A DNA stretch of 64,000 nt, taken from positions 63,320,199 to 63,384,198 of the forward strand of contig JAVIAB010000073.1 of NCBI GenBank assembly GCA_032433765.1, read 5' to 3'. Origin of the DNA: Megaustenia siamemsis. Lineage: Eukaryota > Mollusca > Gastropoda > Stylommatophora > Ariophantidae. Shown in pieces: positions 6,336 through 41,299 of the stretch. Positions within the stretch are counted from its first letter, which is position 1. Each line of letters starts with the position of its first letter. Both the position numbers and the translations under genes were made by a program. The notes below the pieces were generated by a model. The model saw nothing but the letters and a program-made list of their open reading frames with translations, ran no database searches and was not told the DNA's origin.

Positions 6336-6830
6336 ATATATATATATACACATCAATAGGCAGACATATGCATATGTATACTACTTTTGACTCAATCCCA
6401 AAATTGAACTACTCTACGTGTTAAGTGACCTAAATGCGCGCATTTGATGTGACCATAACTCATGACCATCATACCTAGGTCATCATGGTGTTAGCAAAAT
6501 GACTGAAAAGTGGTAAGAGAATTCTAGAATTGTGTTCACATAACAATATACCAACACTTTCTTCAATGTAAAAAAAAAATCGACAAAAACGCAACATGGT
6601 ACCACCCAAGATTTGGTCAATGGCACCAGCTGGACTGTGTCCTAAATTCGTAGAAACCATTTAAATAATGTAAAAATAACCAGAACACACCATAGTGCAG
6701 ACAGTGACTCATGTTATGCAGTGGTCGTAAGTAAAGTAAAGGCAACCACTAAAAGGATACACAAATCTAGAGATCTGGATGGTTGTCCGGGCCTATGATT
6801 AATATCACTGCAGCAGAAACACCCAACAAC
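6336..6830. other. Intron sequence without recognised features
   Basis: A short TA run near 6334-6350, then ordinary AT-rich sequence. No gene or repeat match was seen. Confidence 0.4.
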
Positions 6831-6839
6831 CAAGTGCTA

Positions 6840-8761: not shown

Positions 8762-9595
8762 ATGCCACGCACTCAACGCAAATGGAAGTATGTCTATAAC
8801 CGCAAATCGATATGGCACTCGCACTGTGATGGACAGGCAGGTGCAGCGCCGGGCCCTCAGCCTCAAAAGCGCCCAACCTCTATTACTGAATGTCCTTCTC
8901 AACCGCTCTGTGGAGTCAGGGGGCGAGAGAATAGAGCTACTGGCCAATCCAAAATAAGACCACTAAAAATAATGCACTGGAATGCTGAAGGCATCAACAG
9001 CAAAAGAGATGGGTACAGTAAAAAGATAGAATTAGAAAATATCCTGCATGAAGAACAAGTAAGCATATGCTGTTTGCAGGAAACCCATCTAAACAACGAC
9101 ATAGCCTTGAAGATTAGGGGATACCAGTGCTACCGATCTGACAGAAAAAACAGACAAAAGGGCGGAATACTGACTCTTGTAAGGAACAACATTAATGCAT
9201 GTCAGATTGAAGTGTATATGGATGGGGCGGAATATAAAATACTGCACCTCAGGACAGGAAATACAGACTTCCATCTACTTAACTACTACTGTCCGAGTGA
9301 CCGCCCACTAGCACTAGACACAATTACATTAAAAGAAAGAATAATTGTATGTGGAGACTTTAACAGCCATTCACAGAGCTGGGGGTATGAACATATGGAC
9401 AAGAGAGGTGAAGAGCTTGAAAATTGGCAGGACAGGCAACAGATCCACCAACATTCTACTCCAGATCATGGCATACCACATCTACACCAGACCTTGCTTT
9501 CCATTCACCAGACCTGGATTGGAATATCACACGAATTGTTGGGAAACAACTTGGAGGCAGCGACCACCGACCAGTCTTTTTAGTGGTACAAAATA
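8762..9595 (+). pseudogene. LINE-A endonuclease domain
   Basis: APE-type endonuclease that would nick target DNA for target-primed reverse transcription. In order it shows 'LKIMHWNAEGINSK' (N-terminal motif, with Asn), 'CCLQETHL' (catalytic Glu), 'LLNYYCPS', 'IIVCGDFNSHSQSWG' (catalytic Asp-Phe-Asn), and, after a frameshift near 9430, 'SPDLDWNI' and 'GSDHRPVF' (catalytic Asp-His) in the next frame at 9500-9590. All the expected catalytic residues are still legible, so the inactivating indel is probably recent. The frame before the domain opens at 8762, but the true start is uncertain. Confidence 0.85.
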
Positions 9596-11200
9596 AGGCC
9601 ATCAGGGAGAGCAGCACTCTCTCCAGATGGAATTACAAAAAGGCAGACTGGAAAATGTATCAACACTACACCAGTGTACTGACTAAAGATATAAATATAG
9701 ATAGAGACATCAACAATATAGTTGATGAATTCAGTAGACTAATAATACAAGCTGCCAGTGAAACAATACCTAGAGGGGCACGGAAACATTACAAACCATA
9801 CTGGAGTAGTGAACTAGAGCAACTGCACAATGACATGGAAACATCTCGAAAGCAAGCAGAAAATAACCCTTGCCAAGAACACCACAACAACTACCAGCAT
9901 GCTAAAGCCAAATTTCAACGGGCTAAACTACAAGCAAGACGGGGAAGCTGGAAAGAGAAAACTTAGTCCTTGAATCTTGAACGAGACACAAGAAAAGTGT
10001 GGAAGCTTGTAAAGCAGCTGAATGATGAGGTTACAGAAAGGAACACCAAAATTACACTGAAGAAGGATGGAAACATTATAACAGGTAAACATGCAGCAAA
10101 TTACTTTGCAGACTCCTTTGCAAATGACAATAATATTGAAATTAGCCTAGAAAAACAACAAGAGACCCGTTTAAAACAACAAAATGCAAGACAAGAAGAG
10201 GCCACACATGAAGTCATGGAAACACCCATTACACAAAGAGAGCTGGCAATATCCAAATTAAAAATGAAAAAGTCACCAGGCAGTGATGGAGTGTCCAATT
10301 AAATGATTAAGAACTTGGGAACTGCAGCTAAAGCAAAACTACTGCAGATCTACAACATTTGCTGGATCACAGGTAGAGTGCCACAGGCATGGAGAGAAGC
10401 AATTATGATACCATTACTAAAGCCAGGAAAAGATGGTTCAATGACATCCAGCTATAGACCAATCAGCCTTACAAGCTGTTTGTGTAAAACAATGGAACGT
10501 ATAATCAATCTCAGACTGCCGTGGTACCTGGAAAGTGAAAATCTCCTTGTCCCACAACAAGCAGGCTTTAGACAGTGTTACTCTACCGAAGATCAAGCAA
10601 CCTATCTTTCCCAGGAAATTGAAGATGCGTTTCAAGAAAAGAAACTGGTACTAGCAGCATGGATAGACCTAAAGAAAGCATTTGATAAGGTATGGAAGGA
10701 AGGGCTTTTGAAGAAACTGAGAAATTATGGAGTAAATGGCAGGATGTACAAATGGGTCAAAGCATACCTGCAAAACAGGAGAGCCAGAGTGCAACTGGAT
10801 GGTCTTAAGAGTAAGAAGGTCTTATTGCGCCAGGGCGTTCCACAAGGAGGGGTACTATCTCCAACACTTTTTCTGATCTACATCAATGACCTAGTTACTG
10901 AACTACCACATGGCATCAAAGTGGCAATGTATGCAGATGACTTGGTAATGTGGTGCACAGAGGAGTATGCAACAGTGGCCTCCAAATTGCTGCAAAGAGC
11001 TATGAAAGCACTGAATTCATGAACAAATAGATGGTGTCTCAGCATCAATACAGACAAATGCAGTACTACACTTTTCACACTCTCCCCAAAACAAAAAGCA
11101 GGAGCCATCTACATAAACAATGAGCCTGTGAAAGAAGACATACAAGCTACATATCTCGGAGTTACATTTGATAGCAAACTATCTTGGTAGATAAATAAGG
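9596..11200 (+). pseudogene. LINE-A linker and reverse transcriptase
   Basis: The RT copies element RNA at the nicked target. Visible in order are 'KKSPGSDGV' (finger entry; stop at 10300), 'MIPLLKPGKD', 'SSYRPISLTSCLCKTMERI', 'QQAGFRQCYSTEDQ', 'AAWIDLKKAFDKVW' (box A, catalytic Asp), 'GVPQGGVLSPTLFLIYINDL' (box B), 'VAMYADDLVMW' (box C, catalytic Asp-Asp), then 'YLGVTFDSKLSW' followed by a stop. The catalytic triad is intact. The lesions are stops: TAG at 9964, TAA at 10300, TGA at 11020 and TAG at 11188. Several could be single transitions, consistent with decay after insertion. Confidence 0.9.
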
Positions 11201-11223
11201 CAACCCAAAAAGCAAGGAGGAAA

Positions 11224-12450
11224 TTGGCTATTCTAAGAAAGTTGTGTGGAACCACATGGGGTGCGAGTTGGAAAATAATCAGTAAAGTTTACCAACAGAG
11301 TATACGCCCACATTTAGAATATGGATCATCCGCATGGAACACCACATTGCAAGAACTGGATAAAGTACAAAACCAGGCACTTAGGGTCATCACAGGAGCA
11401 ATGAAATCAAAACCAATATTGGAGATGGAGAAATTGTGGAGGATACTAGCACTGAGAGAACGGAGGGACACAAAGGTGCTGATACAGGCTGAAAAATTTG
11501 TATGCATGCCGAGACATCCAATGAAGGACAGATTCCAAAATCTTGCATTGGGACGACTTAAGAGAAGCAGCTTTATCCACCAAGCCAAGCGTATTAGTAG
11601 ACAAACACCAGACATGCCAAGAGTTGTTAAATCCCTTCAGCCCATACCAGAACAGACTCCCTGGACAGATGAATCAGGATTATCAGTTCAAATACGGACA
11701 GAAGTGAAAGGAATAGTTGACAAAGAGGAACAAAATAGTCAACAGCGAAAAACAATAACTCTCAGTTTCCTGGATGAAGAATACCCACAAGACCTATGGA
11801 TCCGTGTGTACACAGATGGATCAGCACAGAATGCAGTAAAGAATGGGGGAGCAGGTGCATATATAGAGTACCCGAATAACACTAGGGATATGAATAAAAT
11901 AGCAACAGGAAAATATTGTCACAATTATGATGCAGAAATACAAGCAATAAAGTTGGCAATAGAAAAACTGCTGAACAGTAATCTTAGTCCACAGCCTGTA
12001 GTGTTTTTGACAGATGCAAGATCAGTACTCCAGGCACTACAATCCAGAAAATTACCACATCTGCAGACCTTATTGACTGAACTCTGCAAGCACCACAGGG
12101 TTGCCCTGCAGTGGATCCCGTCTCACTGTGGAATACCAGGAAATGAGAAAGCAGATCAGTTGGCAAAGGAAGGTTCAACAGGCACACAACTAGATACACC
12201 AGTTACATACCATCATAAGAAACAGATAATCAAATCAATCAGAGGACCACAAGCCCTAAATCAGGATGCCTTTCATAATATGAATAGATATGATAAAGTT
12301 ATCATTATACGCTTAAAAACAGGACACAATCGACTCCATAGTCACATGTATACAAAATTCAAGATCGGCACATCTTTACTTGTACATGTGGACAGGCACC
12401 CCAGACTGCTGAACACATACTTCAAGACTGCACTGAATATAGTAGACTGA
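11224..12450 (+). pseudogene. LINE-A thumb, RNase H and C-terminal Cys/His region
   Basis: A 408-codon open stretch with the RT thumb ('SIRPHLEYGSSAWNT', 'VQNQALRVITGAMKS'), then RNase H: 'VYTDGSAQNAVKNGGAG' (first Asp), 'YDAEIQAIKLAI' (Glu), 'FLTDARSVLQAL' (Asp) and 'LQWIPSHCGIPGNEKADQLA' (His/Asp). After a frame change near 12360 the sequence spells 'CTCGQAPQTAEHILQDC', the usual C-x-C...H...C tail of these polymerases, and the element fades out by about 12580. The RNase H active-site residues are all present. Confidence 0.88.
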
Positions 12451-33196: not shown

Positions 33197-33202
33197 ACCG
33201 TA
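33197..33202. other. Left target-site duplication ACCGTA
   Basis: ACCGTA directly abuts the first base of the inverted-repeat element and is repeated immediately after its last base (41294-41299). A 6-bp duplication is the size made by Maverick/Polinton integrases. Confidence 0.75.
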
Positions 33203-33708
33203 AGTAGTATACAAGGGTCCATTTAGCCCGCATTTAGGCGCGAATTAACAAAGCTATATAGCAGGCGCATTTTGCGAGAAATGTACACGAGAATCAAGGG
33301 GAGTTAATCGTGACACTTCGTGTCCGGATGTCGACCTCTGGTCCCTGTGACCCCGGAAGTGACCTGTTTATGTTTGGTGTATGCCGACTTTGGCGTTCTT
33401 TATGTACTTGATCGTTAGTGATAGTTTAGTAGATTATACAACATCAATGAAAAACAATAGCATTAAATATAAAACAGAAAGCAAAAGATATACTTTATTC
33501 TTTTATTGGCTCAATAGGTGTATAACATACAGTGGATATTATATAACATTACAAACATATTTAGTACACTGAGTAAATATATTGTACAAGTATAACATTT
33601 ATTTATAGCTATGTAGTTGGGTGTCTGCTTAGCGTTGTACCATAAATGATTCATAATGGGTGAAACTGTTAGAGGTTGCTGGGTAGTCTAAGCTGGTAGT
33701 GTAAAGAG

Positions 33709-34706
33709 TTAAATATCAAGTGGCGTAGTCGAGACGTTATCAGCAGCTACCTTTCTTTTTATATAGAAATAGGAAAGAGCATTTCTTGTTTGACTGTAGG
33801 AAAATATGGAATTATTTAAGACTTTGAAACCTACATTTTTCCCACCCTTAGCCTTTTGCGTAGCGAGAACCTCTAAAAACATATCTTTATCTAATTTGTT
33901 GTGTTGCTTGCTTAGCCCTTTACAACTGATTTTATCGCAATCCCCACTGCAGTGGTACGTCTTACTACATAAGCTAACAAGAGATGTCCCTTCGTACTCT
34001 AGTTTAAAAAGTCCAGGCGTTCGTTTGGTGTACGCTTTAACACCCTTACAGTTTATACAGTCTGTTTTGTTAGTATGTTCATCGCAAAACTCGACAGGAA
34101 ACTAGTCTTTATATACGCTATTAAACTCATCCCGCAGACCTGACTTAACTATGTCCTCTAACTTAGGTACACTTAAAGCCAAGTATAAACTATCAGTATC
34201 TGTTTCACATAACTGAAAGTCTGACCTATCTACAAACTTATCTAAGAACTCGAAATAAAAATCTAACATACGAAGTTTTGCATATGATAGACGAAGAAAC
34301 CGATTTGTAGGGGCAAGTCCCAAACAGTTTTCTTTTTCTCCATCTCAAAAGATCCTCCCCTATTTCACTCATCTTTTTAAACCGGGAACTATTAATCATT
34401 TTCGATATCTCATCCCCCTGAACATACGAGACAGCGCTATGATTGGCCTTATTAGTTAGAGTCTTCCCATAGGCTGAGTTTCCTAAGAGCTTCATCGTAT
34501 CGCTTACTATAGATTGATTTTCGTCTAGATCACCAGCCCTCCTAGCGTCAGAAACCATTTCGCCAAACTTTTTAAACAACTAGACGGTTGATATTCTATC
34601 ACTTGATAAATTTTTGTTACCGCCAAGCCGTGGTCTAAACACCATTTTAACAGTGGTGTTGCCAACAAAATTTTTTTCCCCGACATAACTACCGATTAGG
34701 GTGCGA
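33709..34706 (-). pseudogene. polB C-terminal fragment, left arm
   Basis: Mirror copy of 39790-40787. The minus strand shows 'PLLKWCLDHGLAV'-type and 'KLLGNSAYGKTL' sequence (polymerase motif B, with the NSxYG core) and 'CETDTDSLYLALSV' (motif C, with the DTDS metal-binding Asp pair), then a Cys-rich tail. Disruptions are a stop within 'YKD*FPVEF', also present in the other arm, a frame change near 34300, and a one-base deletion (CATATGATAG versus CATATTGATAG) unique to this arm. Protein-primed DNA polymerases of this family replicate linear element genomes; this fragment cannot be functional. Confidence 0.85.
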
Positions 34707-34734
34707 CGAGGGGTTGACAACAAGTTATGTTTGA

Positions 34735-35535
34735 GGGCGCAGAAACCAAGGAGGGAAGGTCAGAAATCAAAGAGGGGAAACCTAGGAGGCAAGGTCAGAA
34801 ACCTAGGAGGCAAGGGCAAAAACTAAAGAGGCAAGGGCAGAAACCCAAGAGGGAAGGTCAGAAACCTAGGAGGCAAGGTCAGAAACCTAGGAGGCAAGGT
34901 CAGAAACTAGGAGGCAAAGGCAGAAACCAAAGAGGCAAGGGCAGAAACCTAGGAGGCAAGGACAGAAACCAAGGAGGGAAGGTCAGAAACCAAAGAGGGG
35001 AAACCTAGGAGGCAAGGTCAGAAACCTAGGAGGCAAGAGCAGAAACCTAGGAGGCAAGGGCAGAAACCTAGGAGGCAAGGACAGAAACCTAGGAGGCGAG
35101 GTCAGAAACCTAGGAGGCAAGGTCAGAAACCAAAGAGGGAAGATCAGAAACCTAGGAGTCAAGGTCAGAAACCTAGGAGGCAAGAGCAGAAACCTAAGAG
35201 GCAAGGGCAGAAACATAAGGAGGCAAAGACAGAAACCTAGGAGGCAAGGTCAGAAACCTAGGAGGTAAGGGCAGAAACCTAGGAGGCAAGGGCAGAAACC
35301 AAGGAGGAAGGTCAGAAACCAAAGAGGGGAAACCTAGGAGGCAAGGTCAGAAACCTAGGAGGCAAGGGCAGAAACCTAGGAGGCAATGGCATAAACCTAG
35401 GAGGCAAGGGCAGAAACCTAGGAGGCAAGGGCAGAAACCAAAGCGGGAAGGTCAGAAACCTAGGAGGCAAGGTCAGAAACCTAGGAGGCAAGGGCAGAAA
35501 CCTAGGAGGCATGGGTAGAAACTTAGTAGGCACCT
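34735..35535 (-). repeat. 21-bp minisatellite, left arm (about 38 copies)
   Basis: The unit on the minus strand is CCTAGGTTTCTGCCCTTGCCT with substitutions at a few positions. Being 21 bp and stop-free, it reads as Arg-Phe-Leu-Pro-Leu-Pro-Pro heptads on one strand and Arg/Lys/Gln/Gly-rich heptads on the other. It occupies the place where the middle of the polB gene should be. Confidence 0.95.
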
Positions 35536-35617
35536 CGATGGACAGCTAGACAACCGAAGAAGCAGAGATTATCATTGTAAACTTTAGAATGGGAATCGGT
35601 TTGAAGGTTATTAATTA
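35536..35617 (-). pseudogene. polB N-terminal block, left arm
   Basis: About 80 bases on the minus strand matching 37908-37990, encoding 'VYNDNLCFFGCLAVHRGA'. Homology to the right arm ends at about 35617, where the left arm jumps to the 135-bp repeat region. Confidence 0.8.
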
Positions 35618-35639
35618 ACATTAATTTAAAATTAATTTA

Positions 35640-35890
35640 AAATTAACTTAAAAATCACTTTTGAAATTGTTACCCCTTACCATTTTTGAGGGTTACGCCC
35701 ATGGAATCGATAAAAATCGTAAATTTAGCACGTAGGCTTACTTAAAACTTTATTTTAGACATCCCCATACCAAAAATTTACTTAAAAATCACTTTTGAAA
35801 TTGTAACCCCCCTTACCATTTTTGAGGGTTACGCCCCTGAAATCGATAAAAAATTGAAATATAACCTCAAGGCATACCTCCCACATAATA
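35640..35890 (-). repeat. 135-bp tandem repeats, left arm (about 2 copies)
   Basis: Minus-strand copies of the unit with 'GGGCGTAACCCTCAAAAATG' and 'GGGATGTCTAAAATAAAG'; reverse complement of the first units at 36140-36380. Confidence 0.92.
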
Positions 35891-35953
35891 TTTGACACCC
35901 CTACATATCAAATTCCAACAAAAAAACAACAAAAAGCTAGTAGTAGTTGTGGC

Positions 35954-36076
35954 GGTGAACATACCCGATCATACTACTTCTCGTGCGGTTTTGGCACCGA
36001 TACTGTACGAAACAGTATCGGTGCCAAATCTATTGTCTTTCGGTGCATGTACATGCACTTTTAGAGTGGGCAAACA
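35954..36076. other. Palindrome centre with nested hairpins
   Basis: The long arms approach within about 123 bases here. The centre itself contains a perfect 16-bp stem (TTGGCACCGATACTGT at 35991-36006 pairing with 36012-36027) with a 5-base loop, and a perfect 16-bp palindrome GTGCATGTACATGCAC at 36043-36058. No coding sequence. Confidence 0.9.
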
Positions 36077-36109
36077 GCCACACCTACTACTAGCTTTTTG
36101 TTGTTTTTT

Positions 36110-37290
36110 TGTTGGAATTTGATATGTAGGGGTGTCAAATATTATGTGGGAGGTATGCCTTGAGGTTATATTTCAATTTTTTATCGATTTCAGGGGCGTA
36201 ACCCTCAAAAATGGTAAGGGGGGTTACAATTTTAAAAGTGATTTTTAAGTAAATTTTTGGTATTGGGATGTCTAAAATAAAGTTTTAAGTAAGCCTACGT
36301 GCTAAATTTACGATTTTTATCGATTCCATGGGCGTAACCCTCAAAAATGGTAAGGGGTAACAATTTCAAAAGTGATTTTTAAGTTAATTTTTGGTGTGGG
36401 GATGTCTAAAATAAAGTTTGGGGTATGCCTAGAGTGAAAATTTACGATTTTTTACCGATTTCATGGGCGTAACCCTCAAAAATGGTCCGGGGGTAAAATC
36501 CTAAAAGTGGTTTTTAATGTAAATCTTTGTTATGGGGATGTCTAAAATAAAGTTTGGGGTATGCATTGAGGTTAAATTTCATTTTTTTTATCGATTTCAG
36601 GGGCGTTTCCCACAAAAATTGTAAGGGGGTAACAATTTCAAAAGTGATTTTTAAGTTAATTTTTGGTGTGGGGATGTCTAAAATAAAGTTTTAGGTAAGC
36701 CTACGTGCTAAATTTACAATTTTTATCGATTTGATGGGCGTAACCCTCAAAAATGGTAAGGGGGTAACAATTTCAAAAGTGATTTTTAAGTTAATTTTTG
36801 GTGTGGGGATGTCTAAAATAAAGTTTTAGGTAAGCCTACGTGCTAAAATTACGATTTTTATCGATTCCATGGGAGTATCCCTAAAAAATGATAAGGGGTA
36901 AAATCCTAAAAGTGGTTTTTAATGTAAACTTTTGCAATGGGGATGTCTAAAATAAAGTTTGGGGTATGCCTAGAGTGTAAATTTACTATTTTTACCGATT
37001 TTATGGGCGTATCCCTAAAAAAATAGTCAGGGGGTAAAATCCTAAAAGTGATTTTTAAGTAAATTTTTGCAATGGGGATGTCTAAAATAAGGTTTGGGGT
37101 ATGCCTAGAGTGAAAATGTACGATTTTTACCGATTTTATGGGTGTATCCCTAAAAAAAATAGTAAGGGGGTAACAATTTCAAAAGTGATTTTTAAGTAAA
37201 TTTTTGGTATGGGGATGTCTAAAATAAAGTTTGGGGTATGCCTAGAGTGAAAATTTACGCTTTTCGTCGAATTCAGGGGCGTAGTCACCA
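36110..37290 (+). repeat. 135-bp tandem repeats, right arm (about 8 copies)
   Basis: The anchor GGGATGTCTAAAATAA recurs at 36265, 36398, 36535, 36671, 36806, 36940, 37075 and 37212, spacing 133-137. Each unit also holds a 'TTT.TCGATT' or 'TTTACCGATT' word and 'GGGCGTAACCCTCAAAAATG'. Non-coding. Confidence 0.95.
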
Positions 37291-37569
37291 AAAATGGTCA
37301 GGAGGTAAACTCATAAAATTGCCATCATACGTCAAAATCTTTTTAGTAACACATCCGGTATTGCCTCAGAGGTCAGTTCTATTTTTAGTAACACCTCTAG
37401 GGTTTCAAGTGTATATATCTGAGAAGCTTGTAATCAGACATACGCTTACAGTTGTTGACGATGGATGTGTCTCGTACCTTCAAACACATAAAAGTAAGTG
37501 TTATCTTAGATCTTTAATGTTATAGTATGTTACTTTAGTAACCTATTTTCGAAACGTTGGTTTTTTTAG
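37291..37569. other. Right-arm-only segment
   Basis: Unique sequence between the tandem repeats and the polB N-terminal block, with no counterpart in the left arm and no recognised motif. Confidence 0.5.
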
Positions 37570-37992
37570 TATCCACGTGTTATTTGTGTAACCAAAAATT
37601 ATAGTCATCATCTAGTTTTAAGACATAGAGAGACACAGGGGCTGCGTTACTTTCACGCAAGCTCAAATAACGCGACAGGATTAGACAAACCCTTGTTAGT
37701 TAACAACAGAAATGACTTTGAAACGTTTATCGATAGATTAAATGAAAGTGATATATTAGGTTATACAGACAAAAATATGGATACAACCAAATACACCTTG
37801 GAAGCCTTAGTCAGTACGAGTGTTTATGTTTATAAACTTCAAGATTATCCTATAGGGTGTCTGCTAGATATCCCACACTACATTGCATCAAATCAAGGTA
37901 TTAATATCCTTCAAACTGATTCCCATTCTAAAGTTTACAATGATAATCTCTGCTTCTTCGGTTGTCTAGCTGTCCATCGAGGTGCCTACTAG
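37570..37992 (+). pseudogene. polB N-terminal fragment, right arm
   Basis: One open frame of about 140 codons: 'HRETQGLRYFHASSNNA', 'DFETFIDRLNESDIL', 'YTLEALVSTSVYVYKL' and finally 'VYNDNLCFFGCLAVHRGA', the conserved start region of polB_2-type genes from these elements. It then runs straight into the minisatellite and stops at 37990. In intact relatives several hundred residues (zinc-like motif, exonuclease, start of palm) follow; here they are replaced by repeats. Confidence 0.7.
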
Positions 37993-39760
37993 GTTTCTAC
38001 CCATGCCTCCTAGGTTTCTGACCTTGCCTCCTAGGTTTCTGCCCTTGCCTCCTAGGTTTCTGCCCTTACCTCCTAGGTTTCTGCCCTTGCCTCCTAGGTT
38101 TCTGCCCTTGCCTCTTTGGTTTCTGCCCTTGCCTCTAGGTTTCTGACCTTGTCTCCTAGGTTTCTGACCTTGCCTCCTAGGTTTCTGCCCTTGCCTCCTA
38201 GGTTTCTGACCTTGCCTCCTAGGTTTCTGTCTTTGCCTCTTAGGTTTCTGCCCTTGCCTCTTTGGTTTCTGCCCTTGCCTCTTTGGTTTCTGCCCTTGCC
38301 TCCTCTGTTTCTGACCTTGCCTCCTAGGTTTCTGTCCTTGCCTCCTAGGTTTCTGTCCTTGCCTCCTAGGTTTCTGCCCTTGCCTCCTAGGTTTCTGCCC
38401 TTGCCTCCTAGGTTTCTGACCTTGCCTCTTAGGTTTCTGCCCTTGCCTCTTAGGTTTCTGCCCTTGCCTCCTAGGTTTCTGCATTTGCCTCCTAGGTTTC
38501 TGCCCTTGCCTCCTAGGTTTCTGACCTTGCCTCCTAGGTTTCTGACCTTCCCGCTTTGGTTTCTGCCCTTGCCTCCTAGGTTTCTGCCTTGCCTCCTAGG
38601 TTTATGCCATTGCCTCCTAGGTTTCTGCCCTTGCCTCCTAGGTTTCTGACCTTGCCTCCTAGGTTTCCCCTCTTTGGTTTCTGACCTTCCCTCCTTGGTT
38701 TCTGCCCTTGCCTCCTAGGTTTCTTTCCTTACCTCCTAGGTTTCTGACCTTGCCTCCTAGGTTTCTGTCTTTGCCTCTTTGGTTTCTGCCCTTGCCTCTT
38801 TGGTTTCTGCCCTTGCCTCCTCTGTTTCTGACCTTGCCTCCTAGGTTTCTGTCCTTGCCTCCTAGGTTTCTGTCCTTGCCTCCTAGGTTTCTGCCCTTGC
38901 CTCCTAGGTTTCTGCCCTTGCCTCCTAGGTTTCTGACCTTGCCTCTTAGGTTTCTGCCCTTGCCTCTTAGGTTTCTGCCCTTGCCTCCTAGGTTTCTGCC
39001 CTTGCCTCCTAGGTTTCTGCCCTTGCCTCCTAGGTTTCTGACCTTGCCTCCTAGGTTTCTGACCTTCCCGCTTTGGTTTCTGCCCTTGCCTCCTAGGTTT
39101 CTGCCCTTGCCTCCTAGGTTTATGCCATTGCCTCCTAGGTTTCTGCCCTTGCCTCCTAGGTTTCTGACCTTGCCTCCTAGGTTTCCCCTCTTTGGTTTCT
39201 GACCTTCCCTCCTTGGTTTCTGCCCTTGCCTCCTAGGTTTCTTCCCTTACCTCCTAGGTTTCTGACCTTGCCTCCTAGGTTTCTGTCTTTGCCTCTTATA
39301 TTTCTGCCCTTGCCTCTTAGGTTTCTGCTCTTGCCTCCTAGGTTTCTGACCTTGACTCCTAGGTTTCTGACCTTCCCTCTTTGGTTTCTGACCTTGCCTC
39401 CTAGGTTTCTGACCTCGCCTCCTAGGTTTCTGTCCTTGCCTCCTAGGTTTCTGCCCTTGCCTCCTAGGTTTCTGCCCTTGCCTCCTAGGTTTCTGACCTT
39501 GCCTCTTAGGTTTCCCCTCTTTGGTTTCTGACCTTCCCTCCTTGGTTTCTGTCCTTGCCTCCTAGGTTTCTGCCCCTGCCTCTTTGGTTTCTGCCTTTGC
39601 CTCCTAGGTTTCTGACCTTGCCTCCTAGGTTTCTGACCTTCCCTCTTGGGTTTCTGCACTTGCCTCTTTAGTTTTTGCCCTTGCCTCCTAGGTTTCTGAC
39701 CTTGCCTCCTAGGTTTCCCCTCTTTGATTTCTGACCTTCCCTCCTTGGTTTCTGCGCCCT
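37985..39760 (+). repeat. 21-bp minisatellite, right arm (about 84 copies)
   Basis: Unit CCTAGGTTTCTGCCCTTGCCT with AvrII-like CCTAGG in most copies. Variants (CTCTTTGG, CTTACCTCC, CTTCCCGC) recur at about 518-base intervals (for example CCGCTTTGG at 38551 and 39068), showing a higher-order repeat of about 25 units. Long Leu-Pro-Arg-Phe ORFs on this strand and Arg-Gln-Gly-Lys ORFs on the other are by-products of a stop-free 21-mer. Confidence 0.96.
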
Positions 39761-39789
39761 CAAACATAACTTGTTGTCAACCCCTCGTC

Positions 39790-40787
39790 GCACCCTAATC
39801 GGTAGTTATGTCGGGGAAAAAAATTTTGTTGGCAACACCACTGTTAAAATGGTGTTTAGACCACGGCTTGGCGGTAACAAAAATTTATCAAGTGATAGAA
39901 TATCAACCGTCTAGTTGTTTTAAAAAGTTTGGCGAAATGGTTTCTGACGCTAGGAGGGCTGGTGATCTAGACGAAAATCAATCTATAGTAAGCGATACGA
40001 TGAAGCTCTTAGGAAACTCAGCCTATGGGAAGACTCTAACTAATAAGGCCAATCATAGCGCTGTCTCGTATGTTCAGGGGGATGAGATATCGAAAATGAT
40101 TAATAGTTCCCGGTTTAAAAAGATGAGTGAAATAGGGGAGGATCTTTTGAGATGGAGAAAAAGAAAACTGTTTGGGACTTGCCCCTACAAATCGGTTTCT
40201 TCGTCTATCAATATGCAAAACTTCGTATGTTAGATTTTTATTTCGAGTTCTTAGATAAGTTTGTAGATAGGTCAGACTTTCAGTTATGTGAAACAGATAC
40301 TGATAGTTTATACTTTGCTTTAAGTGTACCTAAGTTAGAGGACATAGTTAAGTCAGGTCTGCGGGATGAGTTTAATAGCGTATATAAAGACTAGTTTCCT
40401 GTCGAGTTTTGCGATGAACATACTAACAAAACAGACTGTATAAACTGTAAGGGTGTTAAAGCGTACACCAAACGAACGCCTGGACTTTTTAAACTAGAGT
40501 ACGAAGGGACATCTCTTGTTAGCTTATGTAGTAAGACGTACCACTGCAGTGGGGATTACGATAAAATCAGTTGTAAAGGGCTAAGCAAGCAACACAACAA
40601 ATTAGATAAAGATATGTTTTTAGAGGTTCTCGCTACGCAAAAGGCTAAGGGTGGGAAAAATGTAGGTTTCAAAGTCTTAAATAATTCCATATTTTCCTAC
40701 AGTCAAACAAGAAATGCTCTTTCCTATTTCTATATAAAAAGAAAGGTAGCTGCTGATAACGTCTCGACTACGCCACTTGATATTTAA
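39790..40787 (+). pseudogene. polB C-terminal fragment, right arm
   Basis: Begins with 'ILLATPLLKWCLDHGLAV' and 'KIYQVIEYQ'. It then has 'DTMKLLGNSAYGKTL' (motif B), a frame change between about 40205 and 40230, 'AKLRMLDFYFEFLDKFV', 'CETDTDSLYFALSV' (motif C) and a stop in 'YKD*FPVEF'. The tail then has 'CDEHTNKTDCINC' and 'LYEG'-like Cys-rich sequence and ends at the TAA at 40785. Catalytic Asp residues of motif C are present, but the gene lacks its middle and is broken twice, so it is not functional. Confidence 0.87.
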
Positions 40788-41293
40788 CTCTTTACACTAC
40801 CAGCTTAGACTACCCAGCAACCTCTAACAGTTTCACCCATTATGAATCATTTATGGTACAACGCTAAGCAGACACCCAACTACATAGCTATAAATAAATG
40901 TTATACTTGTACAATATATTTACTCAGTGTACTAAATATGTTTGTAATGTTATATAATATCCACTGTATGTTATACACCTATTGAGCCAATAAAAGAATA
41001 AAGTATATCTTTTGCTTTCTGTTTTATATTTAATGCTATTGTTTTTCATTGATGTTGTATAATCTACTAAACTATCACTAACGATCAAGTACATAAAGAA
41101 CGCCAAAGTCGGCATACACCAAACATAAACAGGTCACTTCCGGGGTCACAGGGACCAGAGGTCGACATCCGGACACGAAGTGTCACGATTAACTCCCCTT
41201 GATTCTCGTGCACATTTCTCGCAAAATGCGCCTGCTATATAGCTTTGTTAATTCGCGCCTAAATGCGGGCTAAATGGACCCTTGTATACTACT

Positions 41294-41299
41294 ACCGTA
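41294..41299. other. Right target-site duplication ACCGTA
   Basis: Same 6 bases as 33197-33202, in direct orientation, immediately outside the element's last base. Confidence 0.75.

Follow-up and report, generated by a model that had tools for sequence, protein, structure and literature searches.

A palindromic, polymerase-only family with Maverick-type ends in the genome of Megaustenia siamemsis

How does an inserted element come to carry the same end on both sides? The question is raised by an inverted-repeat element at positions 33203-41293 of a 64,000-nucleotide stretch of the gastropod Megaustenia siamemsis (contig JAVIAB010000073.1, positions 63,320,199 to 63,384,198 of the forward strand; hereinafter the window). 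The element, with its shared terminus and flanking ACCGTA, is confirmed as a real observation. A first-pass annotation of the window interpreted it as an integrated snapback defective form of a Maverick/Polinton-like element. The element is one decayed copy of a large palindromic polymerase-only family, not a lone defective molecule or a rare by-product. The explanation that we favour, with moderate confidence, is that the family is Maverick-derived and consists of snapback dimers that would arise in protein-primed replication and be inserted by an integrase supplied in trans.

Both boundaries of the element are exact. The left boundary (33197-33220) consists of ACCGTA (33197-33202) followed by the terminus AGTAGTATACAAGGGTCC (33203-33220, plus strand), and the right boundary (41276-41299) consists of GGACCCTTGTATACTACT, the identical terminus on the minus strand (41276-41293), followed by ACCGTA (41294-41299). 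The terminus fits the end motif (AGT)2 given for Mavericks in PMC8097293. No further copy of it, with up to four mismatches, was found in the 64-kb window. The outer arms (left, 33203-35532, plus strand; right, 38982-41293, minus strand) align, as 33203-35532 against 41293-38982, with 98.4% identity over 2,333 columns. The outermost 500 bp contain a single difference, and the outer 1,083 bp are 100% complementary as a rounded figure. The termini and arms of the 8.09-kb inverted repeat first described are therefore real, but the repeat is not a clean palindrome: chained inverted alignments cover 67% of the element, whose innermost axis of symmetry is near 36015 and not at the midpoint, 37248.

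The interior of the element is repetitive and decayed. A 21-bp tandem repeat is present in ~37 copies in the left arm (34777-35532) and ~84 copies in the right arm (37983-39717), and a 135-bp repeat in ~2 copies in one arm and ~8.5 in the other. The 8.5 copies form a satellite at 36152-37308, which is also central in several family members. The inner palindrome around the axis spans 35639-36391 and contains, at 35971, the terminus-like 8-mer ATACTACT, of which there is one copy in the centre of the element. As the first-pass annotation had noted, the same end of polB reads outward in both arms; it is the C-terminal region, located at 33712-34753 on the minus strand (residues 523-867 of the polB piece of family member L021) and at 39741-40784 on the plus strand. 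Both pieces are broken, and their matches to PF03175 (E 0.076 for 34238-34579 and E 0.0027 for 39808-40233) are below the curated bit cut-off. A piece of the polB N-terminus, 91% identical to family member L024, lies at 37597-37983 on the plus strand, with a mirror remnant at 35529-35615 on the minus strand.

The element is far from alone. Exact copies of the 18-bp terminus occur 994 times in the forward and 999 times in the reverse orientation in the 2.59-Gb genome, while the reversed pattern, used as a control, has no exact copy on either strand of the whole genome. Pairing was analysed for the first 100 listed places, all on contig C1. Among these, 41 adjacent convergent pairs lie within 20 kb (3.2–14.8 kb, median 9.5 kb), as against one divergent and six same-strand neighbours within the same distance; 18 places are outside pairs. 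The 41 pairs and the window element make up 42 loci, whose ends were all examined, 23 of them at the ends only. Because pairs were picked by terminus, the evidence given below comes from the sequence beyond it. The genome search that the first-pass annotation had suggested thus returned about 1,000 termini per strand, and these numbers, together with the long matching arms in most pairs examined, speak against the picture of a defective oddity that accompanies normal parents. A chance head-to-head arrangement of two independent Maverick insertions, or of solo ends, would be compatible with the 18 unpaired places, yet such an origin is extremely improbable in view of the excess of convergent pairs, of the single duplication that bounds most pairs, and of the agreement of the left and right 18-bp codes described below.

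An identical 6 bp adjoins both termini at 35 of 42 loci (32 of 39 in the first batch, which includes the window, and all three of the last pairs). When the left flank of one element was combined with the right flank of another, no duplication was found in 1,482 mispaired combinations. Three of the seven exceptions (L012, L045 and L065) have a further terminus outside, and the outermost pair carries the duplication, which brings the count to 38 of 42. The flanks of L037 agree at four of six bases, and L021, L043 and L059 have an inverted host flank in place of the duplication. The central dinucleotide is pyrimidine-purine in 27 of the 32 exact duplications of the first batch (CG 13, TG 10, CA 3, TA 1). 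The first-pass annotation had suggested looking for other inverted-dimer loci with 6-bp duplications of their own, and had taken the duplication to be of Maverick type; both points agree with these counts and with the end motif (AGT)2. Specifically, the family ends AGTAGTATAC...GTATACTACT match vertebrate Mavericks, for which PMC8097293 gives 5'-(AGT)2//(ACT)2-3' as the commonest ends and 6-bp duplications at intact copies. Terminal inverted repeats are present and were measured in 17 elements; in L022 they are only 45 bp long. L012 (C1:10169474-10186789) is composite: it has three termini on its right side, and the inner two share the flank ACTGAC.

Are the two arms of an element copies of one? 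In the outer 500 bp the median distance between left and right arms is 0.2%, and the median between elements is 16%. In 32 of 39 elements each arm has the other as its nearest neighbour. A tree of 78 arms places left and right as sisters for 35 of the 39 elements, compared with a mean of 0.85 and a maximum of 4 for shuffled labels. Bases 19-36, hereinafter the 18-bp code, vary fast, with 32 distinct left versions in 39 elements. The left code nevertheless equals the right in 31 of 39 elements and differs from it at two or fewer positions in 37 of 39; the corresponding figures for mispaired controls are 17 and 67 of 1,482. The claim that the same arm stands on both sides is thus supported. In addition, 16 of 18 elements lose their similarity to the window arm at matching points on the left and on the right (503, 884 and 1536 are examples), and deletions are therefore mirrored, so that half an element behaves as the copied unit. 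L022 and L023 are exceptions to this mirrored pattern.

As for coding content, 18 elements besides the window were read, 16 as whole stretches and two as pairs of overlapping pieces kept apart (L024 with L025, and L026 with L027, each pair counted once). Open reading frames (ORFs) shorter than 150 amino acids (aa) or of low complexity were left out. All remaining ORFs overlap polB matches. No rve integrase was found among these ORFs, although decayed or short genes could escape, and no packaging ATPase, protease or capsid gene was found among them either. The polB matches face outward in both arms in 12 of 18 elements and are on one side only in two (L009 and L022). Where the C-terminal end of polB is kept, it lies ~500 bp from the terminus. 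L024/L025 (13.3 kb) has a zinc-finger start and a polymerase end in both arms, both frame-broken, while L020 and L021 have long open pieces with exonuclease and polymerase motifs, including KLLGNSAYGKT and DTDS.

A protein search scored 7,997 candidates, of which 1,983 are relatives at E <= 0.001. Nine of the 120 relatives listed have an organism name, five being from snails (Pomacea, Littorina and Nucella) and four from amphioxus. PF03175 matches 10 of 16 members of alignment A1 (P0001 and 15 relatives), P0001 itself not being among them. By these matches and the exonuclease and polymerase motifs, the family polymerase is predicted to be of the protein-primed family B type. Such polymerases have an OTU-like protease with catalytic Cys and His, according to PMC11071308. 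In the family, Cys359 is shared by all 20 aligned rows and His447 by nearly all, although this copy has Asn. The model of the polB N-terminal piece has a mean pLDDT of 72. OTU and terminal-protein domains ahead of the polymerase are thus candidates.

Between the polymerase motifs of P0001, at residues ~370-440, there is a weak but conserved stretch resembling Vsr endonuclease. It is improbable, but conceivable, that the polB polyprotein nicks the ends and the target with this nuclease of its own and that no foreign integrase is needed. The A1 profile matches Vsr endonuclease structures at E ~0.005, PF03852 is found in two of 16 A1 members (best E 0.0095), and D370, H388 and E436 of P0001 are invariant columns. 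These scores are weak, however, the genome contains at least 132 integrase matches, and 6-bp duplications with (AGT)2 ends are reported for Mavericks, which encode an rve integrase (PMC8097293).

Where would an integrase come from? A second, apparently young Maverick family is present in the genome; its matches, mostly open frames, number at least 127 for PF04665 and at least 132 for the rve integrase of this family. Beside these genes are a DUF5679/PLA2 gene and a polymerase-helicase gene, the helicase being assigned by Pfam and the polymerase by reading of the sequence. The integrase-bearing family is thus abundant in the same genome and differs from the palindromic one by another polymerase (our own reading) with a fused helicase, by DUF5679 and by PLA2. 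A 794-aa frame of this family (L091:619-3000, minus strand) comprises a polymerase end, a helicase (PF13604, PF13245) and a C-terminal HNH-like region, the polymerase and HNH parts by reading. Beyond the polymerase gene there is a GC-rich minisatellite, followed by LINE-like sequence, as judged by eye. At C73:71301441-71305973 the integrase and ATPase genes are mirrored head to head, a hint that inverted dimers also arise in this family. AGTAGTATAC was not found in the stretches read of the integrase-bearing family, and the sole integrase copy within the mapped part of contig C1 is 147 kb from the nearest terminus. Mobilisation in trans is accordingly an inference.

At five of 42 loci, the host flank of one side reappears as an inverted copy beyond the terminus of the other side. 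This copy is at least 2.1 kb long and 99.9% identical in L021, 769 bp and 98.8% in L043, with the inner 700 bp identical, 1.5 kb and 97.3% in L045, and ~1.46 kb and 97.3% in L065. In L059 it is only 100 bp long (99%) and is followed by a 598-bp direct repeat. In L045 and L065 the fold-back probably took place after insertion, because the outermost termini still carry the duplication. Arms that run on into an inverted host flank have the shape of a fold-back read, and the identical inner 700 bp of L043 could be taken in the same sense. An artefact of assembly or library (missed adapter or fold-back read) is nonetheless very unlikely. For the main structure it is contradicted by the independent duplications at 35–38 of 42 loci; the window arms differ in substitutions and satellite copy number, and a read artefact at the five loci is disfavoured because the inverted flanks are imperfect, least clearly so in L043 and L021. 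Fold-back is a probable process in the family. The snapback form proposed in the first-pass annotation stands as far as this process goes, given equal codes, mirrored breakpoints and five host-flank loci, but not as a rare by-product.

The turn-round between the arms can be followed in L020, an element of 5,137 bp with the duplication CTCGCC. Up to about base 2720, L020 matches the longer arms of L024 and L021 with 93–94% identity; there it departs from them and returns as a copy of its own sequence from base 2417 outward to an identical terminus. The turn-round is inside polB, with arms 99.9% identical, a 303-bp loop and ~2 bp of microhomology. One moiety is thus present twice, inverted round a loop, as a snapback on one arm would give. 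Such a snapback would have preceded integration, given the intact duplication and a return copy that goes no further than the terminus. L020 is nevertheless no proof of pre-integration snapback, for a palindrome that already existed and lost an internal segment would show the same shape.

At other centres, L024 has a 205-bp loop (6627-6831) across the centre, bounded by AGTAGTAT and ATACTACT with inverted flanks, and L011 (182 bp) and L014 (175 bp) have a loop with the same bounds within an unpaired central stretch. Mini-elements of 175–205 bp bounded by AGTAGTAT/ATACTACT are thus located at or near the palindrome centres of these three elements.

The most serious rival, which we nevertheless regard as rather unlikely, is a foldback-type transposon of single origin that is inherited and moved as a palindrome, with arms kept alike by gene conversion and with L020 and others being internal deletions. 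This rival draws on several points that weigh against snapback. A plain internal deletion in a palindromic parent such as L024 leaves a seam equal to that of L020, ~2 bp of microhomology included, so the junction alone is not decisive and the weight of the snapback reading is lowered. The central region of several other elements is built of the 135-bp satellite, and because this satellite is common to them their palindrome may be inherited; most comparable centres look inherited. Elements with unlike arms exist, namely L022 (45 bp of matching ends) and L023, both of which lack extended matching arms; those of L009 are short. Conversion is known for chromosome palindromes (PMC3723533), and gene conversion acting over many copy generations could keep arms alike. 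On the other side, the exact duplications at 32 of 39 loci suggest that the copies are young, so that conversion would have had little time to act once they were inserted; the mirrored breakpoints in 16 of 18 elements would need conversion across each deletion; and five loci show fold-back into the host flank.

Further points count against the favoured explanation of protein-primed snapback dimers. The presence of the same terminus at both ends is a selection effect, because pairs were found via the terminus. A polB match is absent in four of 18 elements (L012, L018, L023 and L028), there is no sizeable ORF besides polB in the elements read, and protein priming and an OTU domain, which rest on motifs, are unproven for the family. 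The outward orientation of polB is unlike that in most vertebrate Mavericks (PMC8097293). Sequence was read at four of the 18 unpaired places (L029, L030, L031 and L032). At L030 another terminus, with a single mismatch and an identical 6 bp beside it, lies at a distance of 2.0 kb; none was found within 8 kb in L029, L031 and L032, so a separate, non-palindromic parent with another end is conceivable; in L031 inverted arms extend to the end of the fetched stretch.

Two candidate parents were considered. L022 is possible as a monomer parent, but its right-end code differs from the left and it may be a recombinant. L021 was set aside as a single-polB parent, its inverted repeat extending at least 2.1 kb into the host flank. 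A search for free relatives in viral contigs, with two peptide patterns only, gave nine pattern matches, none of which was confirmed.

A mechanism that would account for snapback dimers can be outlined. A linear molecule would begin protein-primed replication at its (AGT)2 terminus, where a repeated terminal triplet suits a sliding-back start. The growing strand would then switch onto itself and be extended along its own arm as far as the terminus from which it started, and the resulting inverted dimer would have two identical integrase-competent ends. An integrase supplied in trans would insert the dimer with a 6-bp stagger. Palindromes may also be inherited with their old centre and be shortened inside, and fold-back at integrated copies may sometimes pass the terminus and copy the host flank inverted. 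More tentatively, and with well under even confidence, we suggest that snapback belongs to the normal life cycle. In that case a half-element with a single Maverick terminus would be the unit of inheritance, copied into both arms at each transposition much as an RNA copy renders the two LTRs alike, and the family would be a polymerase-only parasite of integrase-bearing Mavericks, with ~1,000 palindromes, that seeds inverted host duplications.

How does the family compare with known systems? Snapback defective molecules have been described for adenovirus. Protein-primed replicons of the adenovirus and phi29 type share the repeated terminal triplet with the family and differ from it in not being integrated transposons. 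Foldback elements such as FB and Galileo likewise have very long inverted repeats that are rich in tandem repeats, and they differ in duplication length, have unrelated transposases and lack polB. Mavericks/Polintons resemble the family in the DNA_pol_B_2 polB, the (AGT)2//(ACT)2 ends, the 6-bp duplication and the terminal inverted repeats (PMC8097293). They differ in that integrase, ATPase, protease and capsid genes are not seen here and that polB faces outward and is in both arms. The arms are also longer, being 4.6 kb in L016 and an inferred ~6.5 kb in L024/L025, compared with terminal inverted repeats of 46–1,447 bp in vertebrate Mavericks. Snapback genomes of adeno-associated virus are self-complementary, with one moiety present twice and with symmetric or asymmetric loops, and a template switch has been proposed for its nonunit-length genomes (PMC8235507). 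These are parvovirus particles, whereas here there are ~1,000 insertions in the germline, with duplications of the target. In the open-licence literature searched, titles and abstract beginnings describe no Maverick insertions that are palindromic or of snapback form.

Other repeats accompany the element in the window. Positions 43101-64000 are a tandem array of ~5.02-kb units, ~4 copies that are 99.6–99.8% alike, with broken frames that appear reverse transcriptase-like by eye and with no Rfam match. Pieces of a non-LTR retrotransposon (endonuclease, reverse transcriptase and RNase H by eye) lie at 8762-12450.

Mavericks are thought to replicate by protein priming, and we know of no Maverick replication intermediate observed in an animal. 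If most insertions of a family preserve one and the same end in their two arms, that family would amount to a fossil record of protein-primed replication. The family also illustrates how a virus-like element can become a parasite with one gene, and how large palindromes and inverted duplications of host DNA can come into an animal genome. The polB relatives in snails and amphioxus may belong to similar elements.

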